Source of the DNA: Bacteroidota bacterium
GTDB taxonomy: Bacteria > Bacteroidota > Bacteroidia > UBA7662
Assembly: GCA_005799025.1 (NCBI GenBank)
Contig: SYHX01000019.1
Coordinates: 1 to 56,320 of the forward strand
Length of the DNA: 56,320 nt
Reading direction: 5' to 3'
Position numbers and translations under genes: made by a program. The first letter of the stretch is position 1. Each line of letters starts with the position of its first letter. Under the pieces are notes generated by a model, which worked only from the letters and a program-made list of their open reading frames with translations, did no database searches and was not told the origin of the DNA. Shown here one piece after another: positions 32,199-50,125 of the stretch.

Positions 32199-33074
32199 AT
32201 TACCAAACTCGAAGTTAAAGCCTTATTGGCGATTGCACAAAGGCTAGGTGGAAAGGCACAGAGGGAACTTTTGCTGGAAGGTAACAAAATTGTCGTAGAG
32301 GCAATCCGGAGTGGTTGGAAACCTTCAAAAATACTCCTTGGACCTTCGTGGGTAAAGGATTCTGAAGGCATTTTGATGAATTTGGGCATAGAAGTTGCAG
32401 TGAGAAGGGCATCAGGTCAAGAAATGGAGCGAATATCTCGCATGAAAACAGCACCCTCCGTCATCGGCTGCTTCGAGATTCCTGAGCCTCGCCAAAGATT
32501 TCAAGAATCAAGAACATCATCTATGCAGTCTGCCAAGGTTTTAGCCCCTTGGTGGTTGGTTGCGGATAGAATTCAAGACCCAGGAAATCTGGGTACGATG
32601 ATTCGAATAGCAGATTGGTTTGGGTTTGAAGGGTTAATTTGTAGTCCCGATACCGTAGATTGTTATAATTCCAAAGTAATTCAGGCTTCAATGGGTTCTT
32701 TGTTTCGTGTTCCGGTTCATTACACAGAACTTAACCCAACTGAATTAAGCCGTTTGACGGGGATGCGTCTTTTTGATTTTATGATTTCAGGTCAAGCAAT
32801 AGGAGCGCAGTCGGCCTTTCAAGAAGTTCCGTGGTTAGTGGCTTCAATTCCGGGCGGTTTAGATCTAAATAGAATTCAATTTCCCAAACAGGGTGGATTA
32901 TTATTGATAGGAAATGAATCACAGGGCTTAAATCAAAATTTATTGCAACATGCTACTCATTGTATTGGGATTCCTTCTTTTGGCAGCGCAGAATCGCTGA
33001 ATGCGGCAGTTGCGGCGGGTATCTTTGCCAATGCAATCAGGCGGAGTGATTCAGAGTCTTCAGAAAGATCGTGA
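32184..33074 (+). CDS. TrmH/SpoU family RNA methyltransferase
   Basis: ADRIQDPGNLGTMIRIADWFG, LLLIGNESQGL, IPSFGSAESLNAAVAAGIFANAI. Confidence 0.92.
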   Translation: MEPAHITKLEVKALLAIAQRLGGKAQRELLLEGNKIVVEAIRSGWKPSKILLGPSWVKDSEGILMNLGIEVAVRRASGQEMERISRMKTAPSVIGCFEIPEPRQRFQESRTSSMQSAKVLAPWWLVADRIQDPGNLGTMIRIADWFGFEGLICSPDTVDCYNSKVIQASMGSLFRVPVHYTELNPTELSRLTGMRLFDFMISGQAIGAQSAFQEVPWLVASIPGGLDLNRIQFPKQGGLLLIGNESQGLNQNLLQHATHCIGIPSFGSAESLNAAVAAGIFANAIRRSDSESSERS

Positions 33075-35066
33075 CGCATTTACATCTCCGGTACACAAGG
33101 CGTTTAAGTTAATAGTGTTAGGCCCACTGGTCAAGATTACCAAGCCCAGATTATAGACCCAATTACCCGCAGTGAAGTTGTTAATCAAACCTGCGAATCG
33201 ACGACTCACTTGGAGAGCATCGGAGGAATTGATCGTTTGAGAAAGGTTGACGTCTGCGGCTTTAATTTTGGTCCCGATTAAGACGGCCAATGATGAAAAA
33301 CTACGACTAATAAGCAAAGCATCATTGGCACCTACTCCACTCCAAGGCAATGGGTTCAGCCAATCCACGGTATAGGTCCCAGGGACAATATTTGAGATAT
33401 GATAATTGCCCTGAGCATCGGTCACCGTTTGTCCAACGGTATTGCCCTGACTATCTATTAGGCGAAGGGTCACACCAGCCAATGGTGTAAGGGCAAGATT
33501 ATCGTATTTCAAGGTACCGCTAATGCTGCATTGGTTGGCGGAATTAGCCGCAGTAACCTGAACAGGGACGGTATAAATGGCAGCGGCTTGGCCGGTATAT
33601 CCTAGACTCAATGAACAAATTGCATTGTAGGTGTTGCCGGGGGTTAGGGTCGAAGTGTTACGAAGGGTAATGTTGACACTTTCGCCCGGTGCCACGGAGA
33701 AATTAGCCATTGAGTTGCCTCCGTTCGGCCCGAATTCAATACCGGTTCCGGTAATAGATAATCCATTCACCTGTAGCGGCTGATTTCCCCCGTTAAAAAC
33801 CCAAATTTCATGGCTTCGGACTATTCCTAGTCCTACGACCCCAAACTGTATCGAATTTTCACTAATTCGGGCGTTCCGAATACTTGGTGAGGCAGAGGGA
33901 GGTAGGACGGTACTAAGCCGATCCAGAAATTGCGGATAATCCACCAAGGCATTCCGATTCCCTTGTGCGGCTTGAATATCATTGTTGCGACGTTTGGCTA
34001 CCGAATCGGAAGGGAAAAGTTTAACCCATTCTCGTAGCATACGTTGTTGCGATGTGTCCAAAAAGTTCTGAACAACGGCCGCGTTGGCAGCATGCCTCAG
34101 GGCAAAGTACAGCACAGCCCTCGACACCGGGCCCTTGTGTGCGTCGCGGGGTTCAAACCAAATGGAATTTGCTTTGGACCCCCCCGAGTAGGTGAGGGTA
34201 GGGTTAGGAACCCATCCGAACGGCTTATTGCCTCGTGCAGAATTGAGCCCACCATCGCTGATAAACAAATGATGCATATCGCTTTGCATAGGCTCTACTG
34301 AGCCCATGAAGCTCTGCGGCCAAGTATGTTCGGTGTTCATGCTGTAGGGGGCATTGTTCAAGGTGCCGGTATTGAAATCTGCGGCGGTATATGAAATTGT
34401 TCGACCAGAATAAACGCATTCGTTTTTGTAGGGATTGGCATGGGCGGGCTCTCGGCCGTTAACCTTCCAATTATCGGCGGTTCCGAACATCCTCAGCCTG
34501 GCATTGCTCGTGCCTGAGTATCCCAAGGAGGTGTAGGGGGAACTCAGTCGGGTTGCCAAAGCCTGTCGCAAGGGCTCACCCTCCAGGTTTTGGGTGCTGT
34601 TGTAATAGGTGTTGCTGTAAACCCCTTGGCCCGTGAGGTCAACCCGAATTTGCCCCCCCAAGCCAGAATGGGATACCCATAGTTCACTGTTGTTAAATGT
34701 ATTGTGAATTGGATTGAAGGAAATTATAATCCGTTTGTTTTGACCAGCGGCCAATGTAAAAAGGGAGTCCGAGGTTCGAAATGGGTAATCGCCGTAATAA
34801 GGCAGACAAGTGGCTCGGCAATTCAAGGGGACGGTATCGATATTGGTTACCCATATCCCGAGAGTATCGTTGCTTAATTCGGTTTTGTTACCAAAAGCCA
34901 GTTGGTTTATAGAAACTTGCAATGGGGATTGTCCCATACCTTCTTTCCCACTGAGGATGTTCAAAACCAAGAACAATGACAAGAAGGTCCGTTTAACTTT
35001 CACTAGTCTTTTGGGAAGAGTAAAACGAGTGTTTTGCAAATTCTTAGTTATTAACGTAAAAAACAT
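33060..35066 (-). CDS. Secreted endonuclease I (NucM/EndA-like) with flanking Ig-like domains and C-terminal dockerin-like module
   Basis: YSMNTEHTWPQSFMG...MQSDMHHLFISDGGLNSARGNKPFG; choice-of-anchor-D-like domains; C-terminus ADVNLSQTINSSDALQVSRRFAGL...CTGDVNASRSF. Alternative GTG start at 35003 gives a cleaner signal peptide. Confidence 0.9.
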   Translation of the reverse strand: MFFTLITKNLQNTRFTLPKRLVKVKRTFLSLFLVLNILSGKEGMGQSPLQVSINQLAFGNKTELSNDTLGIWVTNIDTVPLNCRATCLPYYGDYPFRTSDSLFTLAAGQNKRIIISFNPIHNTFNNSELWVSHSGLGGQIRVDLTGQGVYSNTYYNSTQNLEGEPLRQALATRLSSPYTSLGYSGTSNARLRMFGTADNWKVNGREPAHANPYKNECVYSGRTISYTAADFNTGTLNNAPYSMNTEHTWPQSFMGSVEPMQSDMHHLFISDGGLNSARGNKPFGWVPNPTLTYSGGSKANSIWFEPRDAHKGPVSRAVLYFALRHAANAAVVQNFLDTSQQRMLREWVKLFPSDSVAKRRNNDIQAAQGNRNALVDYPQFLDRLSTVLPPSASPSIRNARISENSIQFGVVGLGIVRSHEIWVFNGGNQPLQVNGLSITGTGIEFGPNGGNSMANFSVAPGESVNITLRNTSTLTPGNTYNAICSLSLGYTGQAAAIYTVPVQVTAANSANQCSISGTLKYDNLALTPLAGVTLRLIDSQGNTVGQTVTDAQGNYHISNIVPGTYTVDWLNPLPWSGVGANDALLISRSFSSLAVLIGTKIKAADVNLSQTINSSDALQVSRRFAGLINNFTAGNWVYNLGLVILTSGPNTINLNALCTGDVNASRSF
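33063..33524 (-). other. Dockerin-like module, copy A
   Basis: ISGTLKYDN...GANDALLISRSF...ADVNLSQTINSSDALQVSRRF...CTGDVNAS. Confidence 0.75.
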
Positions 35067-35108: not shown

Positions 35109-36799
35109 TGCATCATCAACTCAAAATAGCCGTTTTGGCTTCCTTCCTGGTTTTAACTGGAATTTACAGCGCCCTGACCAGTTCCGGAGGGGCTCCATTA
35201 GGGTTTAGCAGTGCCCCCGGAGATTCGGATTGCACCTCCTGCCACGGAGGTATTACCGTGAATTCGGGTCCGGCAACCCGCTCGCTTACATTCAACGGAG
35301 CGGCAGCCTCGTCCTATGTCCCGGGACAGACCTATAATTTAAGCCTTACAGTATCAAGAGCCACTCGCAACAAATACGGTTTTCAACTCAAGGTGGAGGA
35401 CGCTCAAGGAGGGAATGCAGGTACCCTCATTTCAACTACAAATCGAACTTGGGCTCAACAAGGCTATCTTAACCAATCCGGTTCTGGGAATACCTCCACC
35501 ATATCCGGAACGATTACGTGGAATTTCCAATGGACTGCTCCTGCCTTAGGTACAGGTCCAGTGACCTTTTATTTCTCATCCAACGCAGCCAACAACAACG
35601 GGGGTACCAGCGGTGATGAAATTTATACCGACGCAATATCCCTTTTGGAATCCAGCCCCTCTTACACGATTTCAGGTCTGCTTCAATACGACAATACTGC
35701 TAGAACCGCCGTGGTCAACAGCACCGTACGCCTTTTGGGAACAGGGGGCAATGTTCTTCAGACCACCACCACCAACGCATCGGGGCAGTACACCTTCAGC
35801 AATGTGGCTAGCGGCTCTTATTCTGTTACGGCACTGAGCAACAGGCCATGGGGTGGGGTTAGTTCGGCAGATGCTTTGCTCATTACCCGTCAATTCAATA
35901 ACACAGTGAATTTAAGCGGACTGCGTATCACATCTGCCGATGTGAACGGTTCGAATTCTGTCAGTTCCGCCGATGCTCTTCTGGTTTCACGCAGGGTGGC
36001 GGGACTCATTGGTTCTTTCGCGGCAGGGGATTGGAAATTTGAAACTATTTCCGTCAATATCACCAACGCAAACATTACGCAAAATATTCGCGGTATCTGT
36101 GTGGGCGATGTAAATGCATCCTATCAGCCTCCCACCGCTCGCTTTGCCTCCTTGGACTTGGAACAGGGTTCGATTGAAGTCATTCCCCCGGAGGGCTTAT
36201 GGGTCCCGCTAAGCCTCTTAGACCTCAGTTCCAAGCGGAATCTTGAAATAGGTTCGGTTACTTTGGACCTGCATGCCCCACAAGGATGGCAAATTGAAGG
36301 TATACGTTCGACATTGAACGGAATGAATCCTGAATACAGTATCGAGGGAAATCGTTTGCGACTTTCGTGGTTTAACGTTGCAGGAATGGTTATTGGTCGT
36401 GATGAGCCCATTTTGTATTTGAAAGTGGTTCAGGAGCAAGGTCAAGATTTACATAATACCTGGACTTTATCCGGGGTTTCTGAGTTTACCGACACGGAAG
36501 GTGGCACGCTAGGTGCCTTAACTGTTTCATTGCCAAGACTGAAATCGGGTCAAGGAGATCCTCTTTGGAAAATTCAACCCGTTTATGGCAGTGGTCAGGG
36601 TGTTCAGGTGAAGGTGAGCGGTCTAGGAACCTTGCAGTTAACGGCCATAGACCTTCTTGGGAAGGTATTGGATCGCAGAACCCTGCATCACAGCAACGAT
36701 TACAGCGAAGTGGTCATACTCCCCGTAGGTACAACAATGGTTAGTGGGGTTCCTAATGGGCCAAATCAAAGCCCTACCCTTGTCCGTTTGGCCTTTTGA
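35108..36799 (+). CDS. Secreted protein with choice-of-anchor-V/CxxCH domain, dockerin-like module, cohesin-like domain and degenerate T9SS CTD
   Basis: GDSDCTSCHGGITV..., SGLLQYDNTARTAVVNSTVRLLG..., ADVNGSNSVSSADALLVSRRVAGL, SVTLDLHAPQGWQIEGI...RLRLSWFNVAG, LQLTAIDLLGKVLDRR. Confidence 0.8.
   Translation: MHHQLKIAVLASFLVLTGIYSALTSSGGAPLGFSSAPGDSDCTSCHGGITVNSGPATRSLTFNGAAASSYVPGQTYNLSLTVSRATRNKYGFQLKVEDAQGGNAGTLISTTNRTWAQQGYLNQSGSGNTSTISGTITWNFQWTAPALGTGPVTFYFSSNAANNNGGTSGDEIYTDAISLLESSPSYTISGLLQYDNTARTAVVNSTVRLLGTGGNVLQTTTTNASGQYTFSNVASGSYSVTALSNRPWGGVSSADALLITRQFNNTVNLSGLRITSADVNGSNSVSSADALLVSRRVAGLIGSFAAGDWKFETISVNITNANITQNIRGICVGDVNASYQPPTARFASLDLEQGSIEVIPPEGLWVPLSLLDLSSKRNLEIGSVTLDLHAPQGWQIEGIRSTLNGMNPEYSIEGNRLRLSWFNVAGMVIGRDEPILYLKVVQEQGQDLHNTWTLSGVSEFTDTEGGTLGALTVSLPRLKSGQGDPLWKIQPVYGSGQGVQVKVSGLGTLQLTAIDLLGKVLDRRTLHHSNDYSEVVILPVGTTMVSGVPNGPNQSPTLVRLAF
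35669..36126 (+). other. Dockerin-like module, copy B
   Basis: ISGLLQYDN...SSADALLITRQF...ADVNGSNSVSSADALLVSRRV...CVGDVNASY. Confidence 0.75.
36142..36540 (+). other. Cohesin-like domain following dockerin-like copy B
   Basis: LWVPLSLLDLSSKRNLEIGSVTLDLHAPQGWQIEGI...YSIEGNRLRLSWFNVAGMVIGRDEPILYLKVV. Pattern recognition only. Confidence 0.5.
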
Positions 36800-36928: not shown

Positions 36929-39900
36929 ATGCCTTTCACTCCAATTTTTGCTTGTCTTCGGGGAACCCTGGTGATTCATTTCAAGGTCCAAGGCCTATTT
37001 AGTCGATTATTAACGGTATCCCTAACAGGGTTTATCGCTTCGATCTTTGCATTAGGTGATTCAGAAGCTCAGACATCACCAATTCGTTGTTATACCCATG
37101 AGCATCACCAGGCAAGAATGCAGCAGGGACAGCATTGGGAATTGGAACAAATTTTTGAACAATGGATGTCCAATAGGATCGCTGAAAATTCTTCGAATAT
37201 TCGGCCGGAAGTTGTTTACAATATCCCGGTTGTTTTCCACGTAATTTATGAGAATGCCTCCGACCCATGGAATATTTCTACTGCGCAAATTCAATCGCAG
37301 GTGGACGTCCTGAACGAAGATTTCAAACGCCTTAATGCGGACACCATGAATGCTCCAGCGAATTTCAGAGCCGTTGCAGCGAGTTCCGATATTAATTTTT
37401 GTTTGGCTCAGCGGGATCCACAAGGTAACCCCACTACAGGGATAGTGCGTTGGCAATATCCCCAATCAGCTTCATGGTCCACTTCCTCCATTGATGGCAC
37501 CATTAAACCTGCTACGATTTGGGATCCAACACGTTATTTCAATATTTGGGTGGTTAATATTTCCGGAGGTATACTGGGTTACGCTCAGTTCCCCCTTTCC
37601 TCGGGCCTCGCAGGAATGCCAAGTTCAGGACCGGCCAATACCGACGGCGTTGTCCTGGCGTACAATTCAGTAGGTAGGCCACCTGCCAATCCGTTTACGG
37701 GCGCCTATAACAAAGGACGTACGGCCACCCATGAGGTAGGTCACTGGTTGGGTCTCCGTCATATTTGGGGGGATGGTACTTCTTGTAGTGCTACAGATTA
37801 TTGTGCGGATACCCCCCCATCGGACGCAGCTAATTATGGCTGTCCTACGACACATTCCTCTTGCACTGGTCCGGATATGGTTCAGAACTATATGGATTAT
37901 TCTGATGATAATTGCTTGAATTTGTTTACCTACAATCAGGTTCAAAGGATGTGGACTGTATTGGCCAACAGCCCTCGTAGAGTTTCTTTGCTCACGGCCA
38001 ATTCATGCCAATCCGTGGTTGTGACCCCTGGGCCTTTGACCGCAGCCTTTGTAGCAAGCGATACACTTGCTAATTTTGGAGGCGTATTAGATACCATTCA
38101 ACTTACCGATCAGTCTGTTGGAGTTCCAAGCACTAGATTATGGACAATTACACCCTCCTCAGGGTGGGCTTTTGTGTCAGGATCATCCGCTACGAGTGCC
38201 AATCCCCGTCTTTATTTCAATACTGTAGGTCAATACAGCGTGAAGCTTAAGGTCACTAATGCCTTTGGATCCGACTCTTTGACAAGAAATAATTATATAC
38301 GCGCCAGGGCTTCGGCATGTGTATCGGGTGCAACGGATTCTGCGGATACACGCATTGCTTCTTTTGCATTTGCTGGAATCACAAATACTTATCCTACAGG
38401 CACAGGGAATTGCGCAACCTACACCGATCGGACTGGTTCGCCTCCTTTTCAGGTTACGCTGGGTCAAACCTATTCCGCCACTATTACCAAAGGAACTTGC
38501 GGGGCTAATTATGCGGCTTATGCCAAAGTCTTTATAGACTTTAATCGAAATTATACCTTTGAGTCCAATGAATTGGTGATGGGGGGAAGTCTTGCCAACA
38601 CGGCCAACGCCACATTGACGTTGAATAGTATTCCTATTGGAACACCGGCAGCGACTGCCGGCTCATCCTTAATGAGAGTAGTCCTTCAAGAAGGTGGTTC
38701 AGCGACATTAACCCAGGCATGCGGTACCTACCAATGGGGTGAAACTCAGGATTATATGGTTCAAATCAATGGAGTTGTCACGGTACAACCAGTGAGCGGT
38801 GTTGTAACTTACAGTAATTCGGCAAATACTCCAATTGCCTCGATTAATGTTCGTCTTTTGACCGTGCCCGGAGGGATTCAGGACGCGCAGACGACCACCG
38901 CAGCGAATGGTTCTTATTCCATGAATGCCTACACCAACGGTGTAAGGTCCTTCTCTCTCAACACATCGCGCACAATTGGTGGCATCAACGCCACCGATGC
39001 ATTGCAGGCGAATTTACATTTTTCGAATACACAGCCTTTATCGGGATTACGTCTAAGAGCTGCAGATGTCAACGCCTCGAATTCGGTAAATGCCTCCGAC
39101 GCTTTGGTCATTACAAGATATTATTCCAATTTAATAAGCACGTTTCCGGCGGGCAATTGGGTCTTCGATACGGCTACCATCACCACTACTGGTGCGGCCA
39201 TCACACGCAATCTCAAGGCTATCTGCTTCGGTGACGTTAATGGGTCTTTCATCCCGGCCGCAGCGAGACAGGGTTTTGGTTCCTTTAATCTGTTGGAGAA
39301 CTCCATAAATCCAAGTGATTTCTCTGAGTATGACCATACAGGTTATTTTGAGGACCAAAACGCAGTTACTGTTCTCAGGGCGTCAGGTCCTGCCAGGGTG
39401 GGGGCACTCTCCCTTGATTTAGCTTGGCCTGATTTCTTGGGTCAACCTACTGTGGTGTCGCATTTGGGCGATCAAGAGGTGGTCTATGCCCGCACCGGTG
39501 GTCGTCTTCGTTTGGCGTGGAACGATGTGAAAGGCGCTGAGATTCATGATGGACAAGTGGTTTTGGAAATACATCATTCTTGCGGACAGCTCCCCACATC
39601 TTGGTCCTGGGATGTTGGTGCTGGTTCGGAATGGGCAAATCCTTTAGCTCAAATTTTGCCGGAGTTAGGTCTGCGAATACCAGTTCCGCACAAAACCTTC
39701 AATAGTTCTGAAATTTACTTTTATCCTAACCCTACCGAAGGCAAAGTTCAGGTTGCTCTCCCTGCAAACTTAGTTTCGCAAGTGAGTTCTATTTTGAAGG
39801 TCTGCAATTCACTTCATTGGGTCGTTCGGGATTTATCCGGTAAGGTTCAAGGCACGTACCCCTTTGATGCAGCATGGAATATAGGAGATTCTCCAAGGAA

Positions 39901-40027
39901 ATCAGTAGCATCTCAGACAACGACGGTTTTGGATTTAGGACAAATCAAGGCTGGCATTTACATGGTCGAATTGAATGGCCCTACAGGTGAATCGTTTACT
40001 AAGCCTTGTCGCCTGGTTCGTCGTTGA
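36929..40027 (+). CDS. Secreted M43 (pappalysin-like) metalloprotease with PKD-like, GEVED-like, dockerin-like and cohesin-like domains and T9SS CTD
   Basis: THEVGHWLGLRHIWGDG zinc motif and NYMDYSDDNC Met-turn; VFIDFNRNYTFESNELV...QWGETQDYMVQI; ADVNASNSVNASDALVITRYY; IYFYPNPTEGKVQV...LDLGQIKAGIYMVEL CTD. Confidence 0.93.
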   Translation: MPFTPIFACLRGTLVIHFKVQGLFSRLLTVSLTGFIASIFALGDSEAQTSPIRCYTHEHHQARMQQGQHWELEQIFEQWMSNRIAENSSNIRPEVVYNIPVVFHVIYENASDPWNISTAQIQSQVDVLNEDFKRLNADTMNAPANFRAVAASSDINFCLAQRDPQGNPTTGIVRWQYPQSASWSTSSIDGTIKPATIWDPTRYFNIWVVNISGGILGYAQFPLSSGLAGMPSSGPANTDGVVLAYNSVGRPPANPFTGAYNKGRTATHEVGHWLGLRHIWGDGTSCSATDYCADTPPSDAANYGCPTTHSSCTGPDMVQNYMDYSDDNCLNLFTYNQVQRMWTVLANSPRRVSLLTANSCQSVVVTPGPLTAAFVASDTLANFGGVLDTIQLTDQSVGVPSTRLWTITPSSGWAFVSGSSATSANPRLYFNTVGQYSVKLKVTNAFGSDSLTRNNYIRARASACVSGATDSADTRIASFAFAGITNTYPTGTGNCATYTDRTGSPPFQVTLGQTYSATITKGTCGANYAAYAKVFIDFNRNYTFESNELVMGGSLANTANATLTLNSIPIGTPAATAGSSLMRVVLQEGGSATLTQACGTYQWGETQDYMVQINGVVTVQPVSGVVTYSNSANTPIASINVRLLTVPGGIQDAQTTTAANGSYSMNAYTNGVRSFSLNTSRTIGGINATDALQANLHFSNTQPLSGLRLRAADVNASNSVNASDALVITRYYSNLISTFPAGNWVFDTATITTTGAAITRNLKAICFGDVNGSFIPAAARQGFGSFNLLENSINPSDFSEYDHTGYFEDQNAVTVLRASGPARVGALSLDLAWPDFLGQPTVVSHLGDQEVVYARTGGRLRLAWNDVKGAEIHDGQVVLEIHHSCGQLPTSWSWDVGAGSEWANPLAQILPELGLRIPVPHKTFNSSEIYFYPNPTEGKVQVALPANLVSQVSSILKVCNSLHWVVRDLSGKVQGTYPFDAAWNIGDSPRKSVASQTTTVLDLGQIKAGIYMVELNGPTGESFTKPCRLVRR
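38792..39256 (+). other. Dockerin-like module, copy C
   Basis: VSGVVTYSNS...NATDALQANLHF...ADVNASNSVNASDALVITRYY...CFGDVNGSF. Confidence 0.75.
39272..39690 (+). other. Cohesin-like domain following dockerin-like copy C
   Basis: VGALSLDLAWPDFLGQPTVVSHLG...TGGRLRLAWNDVKGAEIHDGQVVLEIH; same layout as copy B. Pattern recognition only. Confidence 0.45.
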
Positions 40028-40821: not shown

Positions 40822-41613
40822 ATGTCCCGAACAAATCACGAAATTGATTACCGGATTTACGGTGAAGAAATGCAATGTGTGGAGATTGAACTGGATCCCC
40901 AAGAGACCGTGATCGCCGAGAGCGGGGCATTTATGTTCATGGATCCGGGGATTGAAATGCAAACCATTTTCGGGGATGGATCTTCGCAGCAACGGGGCTT
41001 TTTGGGCAAGCTCATGGGGGCAGGGAAGCGCCTGCTTACGGGGGAGTCCTTGTTCATGACGGCTTTCACTCATCTGGGTCAAGGAAAATCCCGTGTGACC
41101 TTTGCAGGACCCTATGCAGGTAAGATCATTTGTTTGGATCTGCAGGTTTTGGGCCAAAAGATCATCTGCCAGAAGGATTCCTTCCTTTGTGCGGCCAAAG
41201 GGGTGGCGGTTGGTATCGAATTTCAACGCCGTTTGGGTACAGGGCTTTTTGGGGGCGAGGGTTTCATTATGCAGAAGTTGGAGGGTGATGGCCTGGCCTT
41301 TGTGCATGCCGGGGGTTATATATTGGAAAGGGATTTGCAACCCGGTGAGGTACTGAGGGTGGATACCGGTTGCATCGTAGCCTTTACGTCCGATGTGGAT
41401 TATGATATCCAAATGGTTCGTGGCGTTAAGAATATGATGTTTGGGGGTGAAGGCTTGTTTTTTGCATCCTTGCGTGGTCCTGGCCGGGTTTGGTTGCAAA
41501 GTCTTCCCGTTTCGCGCCTCGCCGCTAGGATTCTTAGTTACGGTTCACCGGGTGGTCGTCGCGAGGAGGGTTCTATTTTGGGCGGTTTGGGTAATTTGCT
41601 TGATGGGGATTGA
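40822..41613 (+). CDS. TIGR00266/AIM24 family protein
   Basis: [57 protein letters not shown]. Confidence 0.9.
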
Positions 41614-42563
41614 TACCTATGGTTTTTAGACATTTGCTCCTTGGCTTCGTAGGCTTTTTGTACTTAGGTCTTGGTATAGAAGGGGGGTATGCTCAATCCA
41701 AGAAGGAGAAGGCCATCACTCTTGGGAATCTACATCCAAGGATCATAGATTCGGATCCCAAAATTATAATGTTAAATTACCACGCCTATGATGCAGGGTA
41801 TAGCGTGGAGGATGTACAGCCCGCATGGGTGGGTTATCGTTTGAATCGAAATCGTGTGGGCGGCTTTGTTGAACGCACCAACAAATTTCAGCGTGAGCCC
41901 CGATTGGCGGGTTCGGACGCCAGCGACCGTGATTTTGCGGGTTCCGGCTTCGACAAAGGTCATTTGGTACCGGCTGCCGACATGGCCTGGTCGGTGCAAT
42001 CCATGATGGAGAGTTTTTCCTACGCCAACGTAAGTCCTCAGAGTATTGGTTTCAATCGCGGGATATGGAAAAGGCTCGAATCCCAAGTAAGGGACTGGGC
42101 CGCCGACCTACAAGTGAACGATACAATGGGGTTGCTCGTATGGTCAGGACCGGTGCTCAGGGGAAATTCACGTCTTTCGACTTTTGGTCGTTTGCGCATA
42201 CCGGAGGCTTTCTACAAAGTGGTTTATCATCCAGGTGAAGAACGTGTCGCAGCATTGCTACTTCCGCATTTAAGTTCCATATCATCCTTAGAAGGGTATC
42301 TGCTTAGTGTTGACAGCTTGGAAAAAGTGACTGGAATGGATTTCTTGAGGGGATTACCTGATCAAATAGAGGAACGTCTTGAAAGGAATGTATGCGAGTC
42401 GTGTTGGACTTGGTCCACCAAGGCGGGCACTTCGAGCCGCAAATCAAGTGGAAATCAATCCCCGACGTCTGACGCTATGTCTTGTTCTGGAACCACTAAG
42501 GCAGGTAAACCCTGTAGAAACAAGACCCGAGATTCCTCAGGGTATTGCCACCATCATCGTTGA
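41610..42563 (+). CDS. Secreted DNA/RNA non-specific endonuclease (NUC family) with C-terminal Cys/His motif
   Basis: [21 protein letters not shown]...[21 protein letters not shown]-terminal [25 protein letters not shown]. Start TTG 41610 or ATG 41619. Confidence 0.9.
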
Positions 42564-44772: not shown

Positions 44773-45198
44773 TCAAAGATCCTCACGGAAGACCTCGATG
44801 GATTTGGTCACTTTCACGAGGTCCGTAAAGCGACCTTCGTAGCGGGTGGCTTTGACCATATGGTTATCTATCCAATGGTAATTACCGCCTCGGGGTTTGT
44901 TCATGAGCAGTCCGTGGTACTTGAAGCCTCTGCTTTGGAGCCAGGTCTCGGTGATTTCCCGCAAATTCTCGGTACGGCTCGTAAAGAAGGTGATGATATG
45001 CCCTTCATCGTACCAGCGGTTGCAGGTTTCCAGGGCATCGGGGTAATGAGCGCAATCTTTCATGCGTTCCGGTTCCTCATTAGGTACGTCATCGCAGATG
45101 GTGCCGTCAATGTCAATCAGGTAATTTTTGACTCCTTCGGGGAGTACAGGACTGGCCAATCGTCCGTCGATGGCCCTTTTTGCATTTAACTTTTCCAT
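44773..45198 (-). CDS. HAD-superfamily hydrolase-like protein
   Basis: NYLIDIDGTICDD, ITFFTSRTENLREIT, LLMNKPRGGNYHWIDNHMVKAT. Confidence 0.75.
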   Translation of the reverse strand: MEKLNAKRAIDGRLASPVLPEGVKNYLIDIDGTICDDVPNEEPERMKDCAHYPDALETCNRWYDEGHIITFFTSRTENLREITETWLQSRGFKYHGLLMNKPRGGNYHWIDNHMVKATRYEGRFTDLVKVTKSIEVFREDL

Positions 45199-45215
45199 TT
45201 CGTATTGGCGAAGCT

Positions 45216-45223
45216 CAAAAGTA
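45216..45223 (-). promoter_or_regulatory. -7 element TACTTTTG for the HAD hydrolase gene
   Basis: CAAAAGTA on the plus strand, 17 nt upstream of ATG 45198. Confidence 0.4.
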
Positions 45224-45310
45224 GGTTAAAGGAATTATTTATTTCAAAATAGGTTAATGGGGAGTATTCATCTCTAACTTTCAAACAATTATATCATTTT
45301 TTATTTAGTT

Positions 45311-48300
45311 ATGAAAATAGTGCCCAACCGATTGGGAGTTAAACTCGTCATTTTTTGGGCTTTTTGGACCTTTATAAGCCAACATTCAGCGTTTTCCCAG
45401 ACATTATTACCGATGCAGAATCGGATGTTTTCTTCTTCCGTTTGCCAAAGGGATACCGTGGTTGTGGCGATTAGGTCCAATAATTCGCCCAGTTTGGATT
45501 CATTGTCGATGGCCCTGCTGATAGACACCAATTTGTTTGTTTGGATTGGATTCAATCAAGTTCATTCCTTTATTAATCCTGCAAGTATTCAGGTTTCATT
45601 GGGTAATCCTCTCCGTTTTTCCTTTCAATCCAATCCCGGGGATACGGTAGCAACGGGGACTCATACCTGGATTCATTTACTCTTGTTGCCCAAACAAGCA
45701 GGGCTCTTGTCTATCCCATGGGATACCGCTGGATCTGTAACCTTGGATAGCTTAGGTCAACCTTATGAAGCCGTACAGTGGTTCAATGGCGCATTAGTAG
45801 TAAATCCCGTTCTACGAACGGTATTGCCTCGGATTATTTGCGAGGGAGATAGTTCAGTGTTCGGGGGAATTTCTTATTTCGTATCGGGCGCTTATTACGA
45901 TACCTTGCAATCAACCTTGGGCTGTGACTCCATCACCGAACTTCGCCTAACGGTTTTATCCGACAGTGTCGTTCGTGCTACAAGGGGAATATGCTCCAAC
46001 GGCACAATATTTTGGGGTGGCATTACCATAATCCAGCCGGGGCTTTATATCGATACCTTGGTAAATGCAGCGGGTTGTGACTCGATCATTCATTTGACGG
46101 TCAACCTTTTGCCCAATTCATCGTATGACCTCTTTGACACGCTGTGCGCAAACCAATTTTATATTTTCCTTGGAGATACCATTACGAATACAGGCATTTA
46201 TCCTCGCATCGTTACTGCATTCAACGGTTGCGATTCAACTGTGGTTTTGCATCTTCATGTAATCCCCGTACCGAGTATTAGTTTGACTGCTTCGGTTTGC
46301 CAAGGTTCGCCCTTCAATTTTGGTGGAAGCCTAGTTTCCACTTCATTGCCGGGGCTTTTTTCGATCTCCGATACCTTGTTGTCAGGATTAGGTTGTGATT
46401 CTATCGTGAACATGAGTTTAAGAATTTGGCCAACAAATTCCGATACCACCAGGGCAGAAATTTGCGATGGGGACACGTATACTTTTAATAATGTTAATCT
46501 TATTACCTCCGGCGTCTACTGTGATACCCTGGTTAATCAATTCGGTTGTGATTCATTTAGAATTTTAATTCTTTCGGTTCGTCCTCAAGTCAGGCGGATT
46601 CTATTGGATACGCTTTGCCCCGGTCAAACCATTTCATTTGGCAATGCAACAATCAGTTTACCAGGCCTATACAACGATACCTTGACCAATCAATTTGGCT
46701 GTGATTCTATTGTTCAATTGACGTTGATTGGAGGAAACCGTGACACGGCCAGTTTAGCTGCTTCTATCTGTCAAGGGTCATCTTATTTATTCAACGGACT
46801 ATCGTTGACCTCTGCCGGAGTCTATAATTCAGTTTTTGTGAATCGTTGGGGATGCGATTCATTGGTTAATCTTACCCTGACCGTTTCCCCAACCTATCTT
46901 CTAGTATTTAATGACACCCTTTGTGCAGGAGATACCTTGTATTTGGGCAATTTGCCCGTAACCCAATCAGGCCTTTATACGGATTCACTTCGGAGTTCTT
47001 TAGGTTGCGATTCCATAATTAGGAGAAACGTGTTTTTTAGGCCGCTTCCGAGTTCGGTTCAGAATTTTTCCTTGTGTGCTGGAGATACACTTTGGATTAA
47101 TGGGATTCCTTATTTTTCTGCGACTTCTTTCTTGGATACTATTCCGGGTAGCCTATGTGATTCTTTGGTTGGTTTTCACATTACAGTAGACACTTTTCCG
47201 ACAAGATTTATTCATCTTACCCTATGCCCCGGGCAGTCATACACCTGGAACGGTTTAGTCTTAAATCATGCAGGGCTTTATTATGACACGTTAAACGTCG
47301 CCAACGGCTGTGACTCTTTATTGGTTTTGCAGTTAAACTATGTGACCCCCAGGTCGATTCAGACAAGTCAACGGATATGCCAAGGTGATTCTGTTTGGTG
47401 GGGTTCTGTTTATTTGTTTTCTAGCGGAATTTATCAAGATACCGTTCGATCCTACAGGGGTTGCGATTCATTATGGTTATCTCTTCAATTGAATGTCCAC
47501 ATTCCTTTCCGAGATACTTTATCCGATACAGTTTGTTTCTATGAATCCTATATTTTCGGTTCCGATACCCTCAGGCAAAGCGGGATCTATTCGGATACTG
47601 TCGCCGGTGTAACAGGATGCGATTCAATTCATGTTTTATTTCTTCATGTTAGGCCTTCGGTGGATACCACCATTCATGTTACCTACCCGTTTGGGACCTA
47701 TTATCAAGTGGCTAATTATACCTTTAATACCACAGGTCGGTTTGTGGTAAGGTTTCCGTTATCCAACGGATGTGATTCTACGGTGACTTTAAATTTACTC
47801 ATTGAGCCCCCCATTTTCGGTGGTAGTGGTGGAGTTGGTCCGGGGTTTGGCGGCGGTGGAGGAAATTGCGGACCAGGGTTTGGCTATCGACCCTATACCA
47901 CGGTCATTGAAGATGTTTACGGATGTATTGGGGATACCGTAGAAGTACCAATTTGGATCTATAACTCAACGGGAGTTGCTGCGATCACCCACACCATTAA
48001 TCTGGATTCCAATAAGGTTAGATTTGTTGGAGTAAGTTCGATTCTTCCAAATATTAACAATGGTTCAATTGCTTTTAATGCAGCTTCTTTTAGTACCCCC
48101 AACGGGTCACTTTATCAATTTCGATTTGCTTGGTTCGATACGACCGCACTTAGTTTTGGTGCAGCTGTTTTGTACAAGGTTCGACTTTTAATTATTGATT
48201 CTGCTCGATCGGATTTAGCATGGGATATATTGAATACAGGACAATGCGAATACGGTAACCTTGCAGGTTCTCCAATTGCCAGTGCAATTTGGTATAATGG

Positions 48301-49867
48301 CTTATCGCATGGAGGTGTGCGATTGTTCAAAAGGGAAGCGAGTCTATGTCGAGGTCAGTCCTACCAGTTTTATGGACGTTCATTGTCTGCATCTGGGGTT
48401 TATGTTCAAAATGTTCGAAGTTCTGTAGTTGGATGCGATTCGCTAATTTATTTAAATTTGTGGGTTAATGATAGTATTGGTAGACAGTTGAGCTGGGTAA
48501 TTTGTAGTGGTGATCAAGTTTCTTTCAATGGAAATAATCATATACAAACACCCGGTATTTATCATTACCGTGGCACAAGCTATCTCGGATGTGATTCTTT
48601 GGTATCCATGACTTTGTCCGTCCTCCAAAATTCATCGCATACGATACACGATACAGTGCCTTTTGGGACACTGTACAGGGTTGGGCCTTTCTTTTTTGAT
48701 AGACCAGGTACGTACACTACGATTCTTCGTTCAGCCAACGGCTGTGATTCTGTCCTCACCTTGCATATTGTTTTTTCATCTAACGGAAGGATAATTACTT
48801 CTGTTGGCGGTAATTATGGTTTAGTTGGGGATACTGTTTTGGTTCCTGTAACAATTACCAACCGAACTGTGTTTAATGGATTTTCATATCTTATTGATTA
48901 TGATTCTTCTCTCCTCCATTTTGTTGGATTAGATTCTATAGCCTCTGTTTTTGCTGGAGCATTACGATGCGCGGATACCATTCGATTAACTCCTGCCGGT
49001 CTTCGTAAGAATGTTTTTATTGATGGAAATTTAGCTAACTTGGTTGCAACGAGGACCTTAAATGCAGGGTATTTGAAGTTTAGAATAATGCGTCCTGGGC
49101 CGGCTTTGCTTAGTTGGGTGATTGACTCAAACTTGGGTAGTAAATACCGTGATCTATCTGGTAATTATTTGGATTCTTGCATTTGGGTTAATGGCTGGGT
49201 TTACGGAGGGGCTACTCACCGCTTGGTCAGTGATACCATATGCAGGGGTTCCAATTATCAATTTGGAATTCAATCCTTGGACAGTTCTGGGATATACATG
49301 AGCAGTCAGTTTTCTGCTACAATGGGGGACTCTTTAACGACTTTGAAGTTAATTGTACTGGATAACTCCGATTCACTCGAAATATCTTTAAACTCTACTC
49401 GAGATTCCTTAAAATTAAACGGTGTTTATAGTTCGGTCTCATGGTATCGGGACTCTATACTTCAGCCGTTCTATGGGAATACCATGCCTATTTTAAGAAG
49501 TGGATCGTACGCTTATTATGCGATTGGGCATTCTACACTTTGTGGGAATGACACTTCCAATGTAATGGTTTGGCCTTCTGCTTCCGTCCGAGAGCAGCTT
49601 TCCTCAGGAGCAGGGGCATGGATTTTGTATCCTAACCCAAATTCAGGCCGTATGTACTTACGCAAAAAGGATGATCGTTGTCATGGAGCTTGGAGGTTGT
49701 CTATTCAAGACCATACCGGTAAAAAAGTTTTAGAAAGATTAATCCACGCTTTTGAAAACCAATGTGAAATTGCACTTGATGCAGAAAATCTCAAGCCTTC
49801 TGTATACATCTTGACCATAATGGACGATCAATATTCGGTTTGGCATGCGAAAGTGATCATCCAATAA
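45311..49867 (+). CDS. Giant secreted repeat protein (1518 aa): three cohesin-like domains, about 17 Cys-containing ~50-aa repeats, T9SS CTD
   Basis: Signal peptide MKIVPNRLGVKLVIFWAFWTFISQHSAFSQ; recurrent (I/L)C.G....F......SG.Y.DTL....GCDS...L.L.V units; C-terminal WILYPNPNSGRMYL...LKPSVYILTIMD. Confidence 0.88.
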   Translation: MKIVPNRLGVKLVIFWAFWTFISQHSAFSQTLLPMQNRMFSSSVCQRDTVVVAIRSNNSPSLDSLSMALLIDTNLFVWIGFNQVHSFINPASIQVSLGNPLRFSFQSNPGDTVATGTHTWIHLLLLPKQAGLLSIPWDTAGSVTLDSLGQPYEAVQWFNGALVVNPVLRTVLPRIICEGDSSVFGGISYFVSGAYYDTLQSTLGCDSITELRLTVLSDSVVRATRGICSNGTIFWGGITIIQPGLYIDTLVNAAGCDSIIHLTVNLLPNSSYDLFDTLCANQFYIFLGDTITNTGIYPRIVTAFNGCDSTVVLHLHVIPVPSISLTASVCQGSPFNFGGSLVSTSLPGLFSISDTLLSGLGCDSIVNMSLRIWPTNSDTTRAEICDGDTYTFNNVNLITSGVYCDTLVNQFGCDSFRILILSVRPQVRRILLDTLCPGQTISFGNATISLPGLYNDTLTNQFGCDSIVQLTLIGGNRDTASLAASICQGSSYLFNGLSLTSAGVYNSVFVNRWGCDSLVNLTLTVSPTYLLVFNDTLCAGDTLYLGNLPVTQSGLYTDSLRSSLGCDSIIRRNVFFRPLPSSVQNFSLCAGDTLWINGIPYFSATSFLDTIPGSLCDSLVGFHITVDTFPTRFIHLTLCPGQSYTWNGLVLNHAGLYYDTLNVANGCDSLLVLQLNYVTPRSIQTSQRICQGDSVWWGSVYLFSSGIYQDTVRSYRGCDSLWLSLQLNVHIPFRDTLSDTVCFYESYIFGSDTLRQSGIYSDTVAGVTGCDSIHVLFLHVRPSVDTTIHVTYPFGTYYQVANYTFNTTGRFVVRFPLSNGCDSTVTLNLLIEPPIFGGSGGVGPGFGGGGGNCGPGFGYRPYTTVIEDVYGCIGDTVEVPIWIYNSTGVAAITHTINLDSNKVRFVGVSSILPNINNGSIAFNAASFSTPNGSLYQFRFAWFDTTALSFGAAVLYKVRLLIIDSARSDLAWDILNTGQCEYGNLAGSPIASAIWYNGLSHGGVRLFKREASLCRGQSYQFYGRSLSASGVYVQNVRSSVVGCDSLIYLNLWVNDSIGRQLSWVICSGDQVSFNGNNHIQTPGIYHYRGTSYLGCDSLVSMTLSVLQNSSHTIHDTVPFGTLYRVGPFFFDRPGTYTTILRSANGCDSVLTLHIVFSSNGRIITSVGGNYGLVGDTVLVPVTITNRTVFNGFSYLIDYDSSLLHFVGLDSIASVFAGALRCADTIRLTPAGLRKNVFIDGNLANLVATRTLNAGYLKFRIMRPGPALLSWVIDSNLGSKYRDLSGNYLDSCIWVNGWVYGGATHRLVSDTICRGSNYQFGIQSLDSSGIYMSSQFSATMGDSLTTLKLIVLDNSDSLEISLNSTRDSLKLNGVYSSVSWYRDSILQPFYGNTMPILRSGSYAYYAIGHSTLCGNDTSNVMVWPSASVREQLSSGAGAWILYPNPNSGRMYLRKKDDRCHGAWRLSIQDHTGKKVLERLIHAFENQCEIALDAENLKPSVYILTIMDDQYSVWHAKVIIQ
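45404..45803 (+). other. Cohesin-like domain 1 of the giant protein
   Basis: VCQRDTVVVAIRSNNSPSLDSLSMALLIDTNLFVWIG...WIHLLLLPKQAGLLSIPWD...AVQWFNGALVV. Confidence 0.45.
45812..47806 (+). repeat. Tandem block of 13 degenerate ~150-bp coding repeats (GCDS repeats)
   Basis: GCDS (or LCDS in repeat 9) recurs every ~50 aa; three further units at 48328-48780 and one at 49222-49365. Confidence 0.88.
47887..48327 (+). other. Cohesin-like domain 2 of the giant protein
   Basis: GCIGDTVEVPIWIYNSTGVAAITHTINLDSNKVRFVGVSS...YKVRLLIIDSARSDLAWD. Confidence 0.6.
48793..49215 (+). other. Cohesin-like domain 3 of the giant protein
   Basis: GLVGDTVLVPVTITNRTVFNGFSYLIDYDSSLLHFVGLDS...GYLKFRIMRPGPALLSWV. Confidence 0.65.
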
Positions 49868-49884
49868 CCAGGGAATCCCCTGGT
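49867..49884. terminator. Perfect 7-bp hairpin ACCAGGG-AATC-CCCTGGT between the giant gene and tRNA-Pro (no U tract)
   Basis: Inverted repeat starting at the last base of the TAA stop codon; could serve both convergent units. Confidence 0.4.
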
Positions 49885-49893
49885 CATTGAATG

Positions 49894-49968
49894 TCGGGGT
49901 GAGAGGATTCGAACCTCCGACCACACGCCCCCCAGACGTGTACGCTAACCGGACTGCGCTACACCCCG
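49894..49968 (-). tRNA. tRNA-Pro (GGG)
   Basis: Minus strand CGGGGTG-TA-GCGC...CACGT-CTGGGGG-GCGTG...GGAGG-TTCGAAT-CCTCT-CACCCCG-A; no encoded CCA. Confidence 0.95.
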
Positions 49969-50004
49969 ATGACCGTCAAACGGTCCCCGGCTTGAGCCGG
50001 GTCG

Positions 50005-50034
50005 CAAATATACACCGATGCAGTGACGTAGCAA
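50005..50034 (-). promoter_or_regulatory. Bacteroidota promoter for tRNA-Pro: TTG-N19-TATATTTG
   Basis: Minus-strand TTG (50032-50034), 19 nt, TATATTTG (50005-50012); exact -33/-7 consensus and spacing. Confidence 0.75.
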
Positions 50035-50125
50035 GGCCAAAGGTTCTGCTAGCCGATCTACACGTTTATGAGCGGATAATGCCCTGCTTATGGCTATTTT
50101 GCGCTTGCAATTGGGATATAAAGCG

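Follow-up and report, generated by a model that had tools for sequence, protein, structure and literature searches.

The window analyzed here is the 56,320-nucleotide stretch of contig SYHX01000019.1 (positions 1 to 56,320 of the forward strand; assembly GCA_005799025.1) from a Bacteroidota bacterium whose genome is a 1.77-Mb metagenome-assembled genome (MAG), 92.6% complete. It contains an intact open reading frame (ORF) at 45311-49867 (+), here called P0001, encoding a 1518-aa protein in which three cohesin domains are interleaved with short repeats carrying a GCDS motif. On balance, and with some reservation, we favor the view that P0001 is a non-catalytic, surface-attached scaffoldin exported by the type IX secretion system (T9SS), and an optional, fast-diverging member of a cohesin-dockerin system.

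Domain organization of P0001

P0001 comprises, in order, a signal peptide, a cohesin, 13 GCDS repeats, a Gly-rich linker, a second cohesin, three repeats, a third cohesin, one repeat, and a T9SS type-A C-terminal sorting domain (CTD). The features are listed below with the evidence for each (HMM, hidden Markov model).

45311..49867 (+): P0001, 1518-aa scaffoldin-like protein (ORF, translation, Pfam)
45311..45400 (+): putative Sec signal peptide, residues 1-30 (sequence read by eye)
45410..45805 (+): cohesin 1, diverged, without the conserved CE.AD motif (leave-out HMM, hhalign)
45836..47818 (+): 13 GCDS repeats, residues 176-836 (motif positions, repeat HMM)
47816..47884 (+): Gly-rich linker, residues 836-858, after repeat 13 (sequence)
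47891..48316 (+): cohesin 2, the best conserved (Pfam, leave-out HMM, AlphaFold model and Foldseek)
48341..48796 (+): three GCDS repeats, predicted all-beta (motifs, HMM, model)
48788..49210 (+): cohesin 3, diverged (Pfam, leave-out HMM)
49235..49375 (+): one degenerate repeat, MGDS (motif, HMM)
49625..49861 (+): T9SS type-A CTD (Pfam)

The Pfam Cohesin model (PF00963) matches P0001 over two stretches at 42.1 bits (cut-off 24.1), and this level is reached by cohesins 2 and 3; cohesin 1 falls under the threshold and is recognized only by a lineage-specific leave-out profile, built from 126 cohesins of the host and related genomes with the P0001 sequences excluded. This profile scores cohesins 1, 2 and 3 at 41.9, 83.7 and 37.2 bits, against a best score of 2.9 bits for shuffled copies (n=200), and comparison of cohesin 1 by hhalign gives a probability of 95.7 (E 1e-8). 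An AlphaFold model of cohesin 2 with three repeats has a mean pLDDT of 87.5, mostly >90 within cohesin 2, which adopts the nine-stranded jelly roll of cohesins. The best 50 Foldseek matches to the cohesin 2 model in the PDB are all cohesin entries, and the closest solved fold is the Archaeoglobus fulgidus cohesin 2xdh (TM 0.81, 15% identity), an archaeal, non-cellulosomal cohesin that shares this fold and is not a T9SS scaffold. With a pTM of 0.59, the model does not fix the placement of the modules relative to one another.

The C-terminal domain matches Pfam Por_Secre_tail (PF18962) at 33.5 bits and TIGR04183 at 20.3 bits, under the latter's cut-off of 23, and a full-length SprA is encoded in the host genome (2470 bits). 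With a CTD on the protein and a T9SS (SprA) in the genome, P0001 has the attributes of a T9SS type-A substrate, and it has those of a scaffoldin as well: several cohesins, a surface attachment signal and no catalytic domain, in a genome that encodes dockerin-bearing enzymes. The Pfam scan found no carbohydrate-binding module (CBM) on P0001, and whole-protein searches gave no orthologue in GTDB contigs and no match among plasmids. The original prediction, made by a model from the letters and a list of ORFs, had described a 1518-aa T9SS-type protein with 13, 3 and 1 repeats around three cohesin-like domains. This architecture was correct in full, the CTD match and SprA bear out the secretion type, and the three non-repeat domains proved to be cohesins by the leave-out profile, cohesin 2 also by its fold.

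The xCDS motifs lie at residues 204-820 (13 copies), at 1041, 1093 and 1144 (three), and at 1338 (the single degenerate MGDS), and an HMM built from these copies recovers the same 17 at 45-67 bits each. Their mean pairwise identity is 30%, which makes them old repeats rather than recent tandem copies. No Pfam, NCBIfam or PHROGs model and no PDB sequence matched them, and a literature search for GCDS repeats under that name found none; the three repeats modeled beside cohesin 2 are all-beta. Interleaving of cohesins with GCDS repeats recurs elsewhere in the genus and family. One chain in G008 has seven repeats, a cohesin, four repeats and a dockerin, and chains in G005 and G008 have four repeats, a cohesin, four repeats, a dockerin and a cohesin. 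Two giant ORFs of G014 (L150 on C15 and L151 on C10; 5272 and 5737 aa, 78% identical), each spanning a whole contig, carry 18 and 19 cohesins with eight GCDS repeats each; one ends in a CTD and the other in a GDVN dockerin end. The arrangement in P0001 is thus a theme of the lineage and not a one-off.

Searching phages with P0001 gave one distant repeat-type match (LR745206.1:579393-581132), in a 634,780-base uncultured phage record. Four places in it are similar to P0001, the best at 24.9% identity (residues 306-1227), a hint that a large phage may carry GCDS-like repeats.

Cohesins and dockerins of the host and its relatives

At least 11 cohesins are encoded across five proteins of the host genome: three each in P0001 and a protein on contig C47, two each on C10 and C30, and one on C31, with the C30 and C31 genes truncated at contig ends. 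The C47 protein (1438 aa) combines three cohesins with a dockerin and a CTD. Host dockerins number 19-20 and X-dockerin modules, in which an Ig-like X module precedes the dockerin, number 19; their bearers include Endonuclease I (EndoI), M43, S8 and M1 peptidases, GH18 and GH16 (M1 by sequence reading). In a genus-level cohesin alignment against GTDB contigs, the closest named records with a host-type cohesin are Bacteroidota MAGs, several of them named for lakes or a pond. Three adjacent dockerin proteins on host contig C69 (L037:353-6319) show an unusual dockerin context by eye; the C-terminus of two of them appears similar to the Fibrobacter paralogous domain, and one seems to include a lipase-like region.

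We searched 60 relatives, taking a profile E below 1e-25 to denote a strong X-dockerin. Strong cohesins do not extend beyond the taxonomic family, with the exception of two weaker matches in an outgroup genome (G027), and they co-occur with strong X-dockerins in the same 15 of the 17 family genomes. Both are absent together from G010 and G013 (99% and 96% complete), which keep SprA; since G013 shares its genus with two positive genomes, joint loss is the simplest reading. No P value is attached to this co-occurrence because it concerns one clade with few independent events. Among the matches listed, a dockerin gene lies within 5 kb of 16 of the 55 cohesin genes that have no dockerin in the same ORF, for which a chance model that ignores shared ancestry gives a rough P of 3e-4. 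This proximity mostly reflects a conserved pair in six sister species, in which a 466-484-aa X-dockerin/cohesin-like/CTD protein is encoded beside a ~700-aa cohesin protein; Pfam found no CTD on the latter in two examples. The linked presence and absence of the two modules supports the existence of a cellulosome-like cohesin-dockerin system.

An optional gene beside tRNA-Pro

P0001 lies next to a tRNA gene that marks its insertion site.

49893..49968 (-): tRNA-Pro(ggg), 3' end facing P0001

Only 25 bases separate the end of P0001 from the 3' end of the tRNA, and P0001 fills the tRNA-Pro gap in the host (site 45199-50090) with a G+C content of about 40-44%, compared with about 49-50% on both sides. 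Four sister species (G001, G002, G003 and G005) have tRNA-Pro(ggg) between the same two neighbors, with a gap of 341-401 bases and no P0001; in G002 the neighbors are kept gene by gene. The P0001 site showed neither an integrase nor a flanking repeat. P0001 is an optional single-gene insertion, gained or lost, and the four empty sites suggest that this may be a gene-gain hotspot. Adjacent to this site in G005, the orthologues of oligopeptidase B and of the gene at 44773 (-) flank a pair of different genes of secreted type (about 613 and 708 aa; L224:3553-7586), which suggests a variable region.

The absence of P0001 from these sister species weighs against its being a working scaffoldin, as does the divergence of its cohesins. 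In a tree of 129 cohesins the P0001 branches (0.99, 1.26 and 1.81, against a median end branch of 0.16) are among the longest, and family-conserved residues are missing from cohesins 1 and 3, so that these cohesins may have changed or lost specificity. An optional gene with strongly diverged cohesins could also encode an adhesin, its cohesin-fold domains and GCDS repeats being merely structural beta-modules of a stalk that binds no dockerin, and we regard this as rather unlikely though the most serious of the alternatives. Long proteins with GCDS repeats and no cohesin do exist in the host genome and class; such T9SS proteins of Bacteroidota share the repeat, lack cohesins, and have 15-25 repeats in those mapped. 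One of them is a 1849-aa host protein with 25 repeats (L164:4308-9854, contig C17), which adjoins a 1398-aa X-dockerin protein. However, all three P0001 domains have kept the cohesin profile, and such cohesins are found only in genomes that have X-dockerins, a restriction that the GCDS repeats do not share.

X-dockerins with a putative split loop form two classes

Across 75 aligned X-dockerin modules, positions 1, 3 and 12 of the intact calcium loop are occupied by D (74/74), N (73/74) and D (74/74). Of the other loop, only the second half lies at the module front, with D at position 12 in 74/74, and its missing first half is found at the module end as G-D-V-N-G-S, in which D (75/75), N (74/75) and S (70/75) correspond to ligand positions 1, 3 and 5. 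Nearly all Pfam dockerin matches begin at profile position 8-11. The two complete consecutive F-hand loops of type I dockerins (PF00404) are not present, and profile and PDB dockerin matches are still obtained for the split-loop modules; the X part of the profile touches 4wi0/4u3s. In a model of the M43 peptidase protein, the terminal segment (block 161-170) has a mean pLDDT of 94. Judging from the sequences, in which the putative ligand positions are read, X-dockerins look like circularly permuted dockerins in which each end of the domain supplies part of one calcium loop. The papers returned by a literature search on such permutation were, as far as the retrieved excerpts go, engineering papers mentioning the terms.

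Among 98 unique X-dockerins, 61 have a tail of 200-270 residues and an intact end (67 in a wider 151-420 class). The tail consists of a remote cohesin, recognized by profile comparison (probability 97) and by structural similarity to solved cohesins (TM about 0.6), followed by a CTD. Dockerins might on this evidence function chiefly in cis or between like chains, those of CTD proteins each pairing with the adjacent cohesin-like domain and capping it or joining neighbors, with P0001 not their main partner. We consider this distinctly improbable, since 20 of the 98 end within 30 residues of GDVN and have neither a cohesin of their own nor a CTD, both classes belong to one dockerin family with about five switches on the tree, and the cis cohesin-like domain has lost most family-conserved residues.

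The CTD-less class includes EndoI, GH18, GH16, S8 and an M1-type peptidase (the last again assigned by reading its sequence), and in the host genome consists mostly of hydrolases. The two classes raise the question of how proteins with no T9SS signal reach the surface, and one possibility is that they leave the periplasm riding on a cohesin-CTD carrier. More broadly, and somewhat speculatively, the permuted dockerin could be the export and retention tag of a T9SS-linked network, an unlikely arrangement in which CTD-less hydrolases, once folded in the periplasm, would attach to cohesin-CTD carriers for passage through the T9SS pore, or else scaffolds such as P0001 would capture them later at the cell surface.

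The upstream dockerin cluster

Three dockerin proteins are encoded 5-12 kb upstream of P0001, with the following features.

33060..33560 (-): X-dockerin at the extreme C-terminus of the Endonuclease I protein (33060-35066), without CTD (Pfam, X-dockerin profile)
35630..36151 (+): X-dockerin of a choice-anchor V protein (563 aa), with a cohesin-like domain and then a degenerate CTD-like tail after it (library scan, X-dockerin profile)
38756..39271 (+): X-dockerin of the M43 peptidase protein (Pfam, X-dockerin profile, model)
39266..39688 (+): cohesin-fold domain of the M43 protein, located after the dockerin and before the CTD, limits approximate (profile comparison, model)
39722..39997 (+): T9SS CTD of the M43 protein

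Adjoining the cluster at 41610-42563 is another nuclease predicted to be of secreted type (Endonuclease_NS), which has no dockerin match.

Profile matches uphold the original prediction that all three proteins carry dockerins. Its further suggestion, that P0001 is the scaffold for them, has this and the shared neighborhood in its favor, but we think it very improbable. The cluster is syntenic in G001 and G002, with 79-82% identity for EndoI and M43, and the tRNA-Pro site of both species is without P0001; the upstream dockerins are therefore not dependent on P0001. The host genome offers at least four further cohesin proteins, others are present in G001 and G002, and two of the three cluster proteins have a cohesin-like and CTD region of their own after the dockerin. 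Given this independence and the long branches of the P0001 cohesins, we rate the specific pairing low and keep the general scaffold reading.

Comparison with known systems

The best-known cohesin-dockerin scaffolds are those of Gram-positive cellulolytic anaerobes. The host system resembles the type I clostridial cellulosome in its multi-cohesin non-catalytic scaffold, dockerin-tagged hydrolases, cohesin fold and duplicated calcium-binding dockerin loops. It differs in belonging to a Gram-negative Bacteroidota, in anchoring by a T9SS CTD, in the GCDS repeat stalk and lack of a CBM found on P0001, in a permuted dockerin placed after an Ig-like X module, and in enzymes that include a nuclease and peptidases. 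Cellulosomes assemble plant cell wall enzymes on cohesin-dockerin pairs, usually with a CBM, whereas the clients here are a nuclease, peptidases, GH18 and GH16; the host system would work like a cellulosome and is not classed as one. Clostridial and ruminococcal X-dockerin (XDoc) modules likewise have an Ig-like module directly before the dockerin, but here the first loop is split and many of the dockerins have a cohesin-fold domain and CTD after them.

In one T9SS-using rumen Bacteroidetes, a study found no cohesins or dockerins and described this as agreeing with what other genomes of the phylum show (PMC5831590). As far as excerpts of the source go, a complex predicted for Candidatus Stygibacter (Cloacimonadota) comprises a CTD-anchored multi-cohesin protein and enzymes, including GH18 and S8, with C-terminal dockerins (PMC8542988). 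The concept of a CTD-anchored scaffold is thus not new, and both complexes are predictions. Unlike P0001, the Stygibacter scaffoldin carries CBM2/CBM3, and the excerpted description contains no dockerin-cohesin-CTD module, split dockerin loop or GCDS interleaving (PMC8542988). As far as our literature search shows, subscription papers being mostly outside it, the new features are the presence of the system as a set across a lineage of lake Bacteroidota, the spacing by GCDS repeats, the permuted form of the X-dockerin, and the tail in which a cohesin and a CTD follow the dockerin.

If P0001 is a scaffoldin, stalks of small all-beta GCDS repeats would hold its three cohesins apart and off the surface, where they would bind the dockerins of secreted hydrolases and so retain these enzymes on the cell. 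P0001 would be one of at least five cohesin proteins serving about 19 dockerin proteins, and one whose gain or loss involved a single gene next to tRNA-Pro. The split-loop dockerin offers a testable new shape of a module widely used in biotechnology. A planktonic lake lineage of Bacteroidota, with genomes of 1.2-3.1 Mb, has a whole cohesin-dockerin set that is T9SS-attached and has non-cellulosic clients, and this cellulosome-like, previously undescribed docking system may hold digestive enzymes on the cell.
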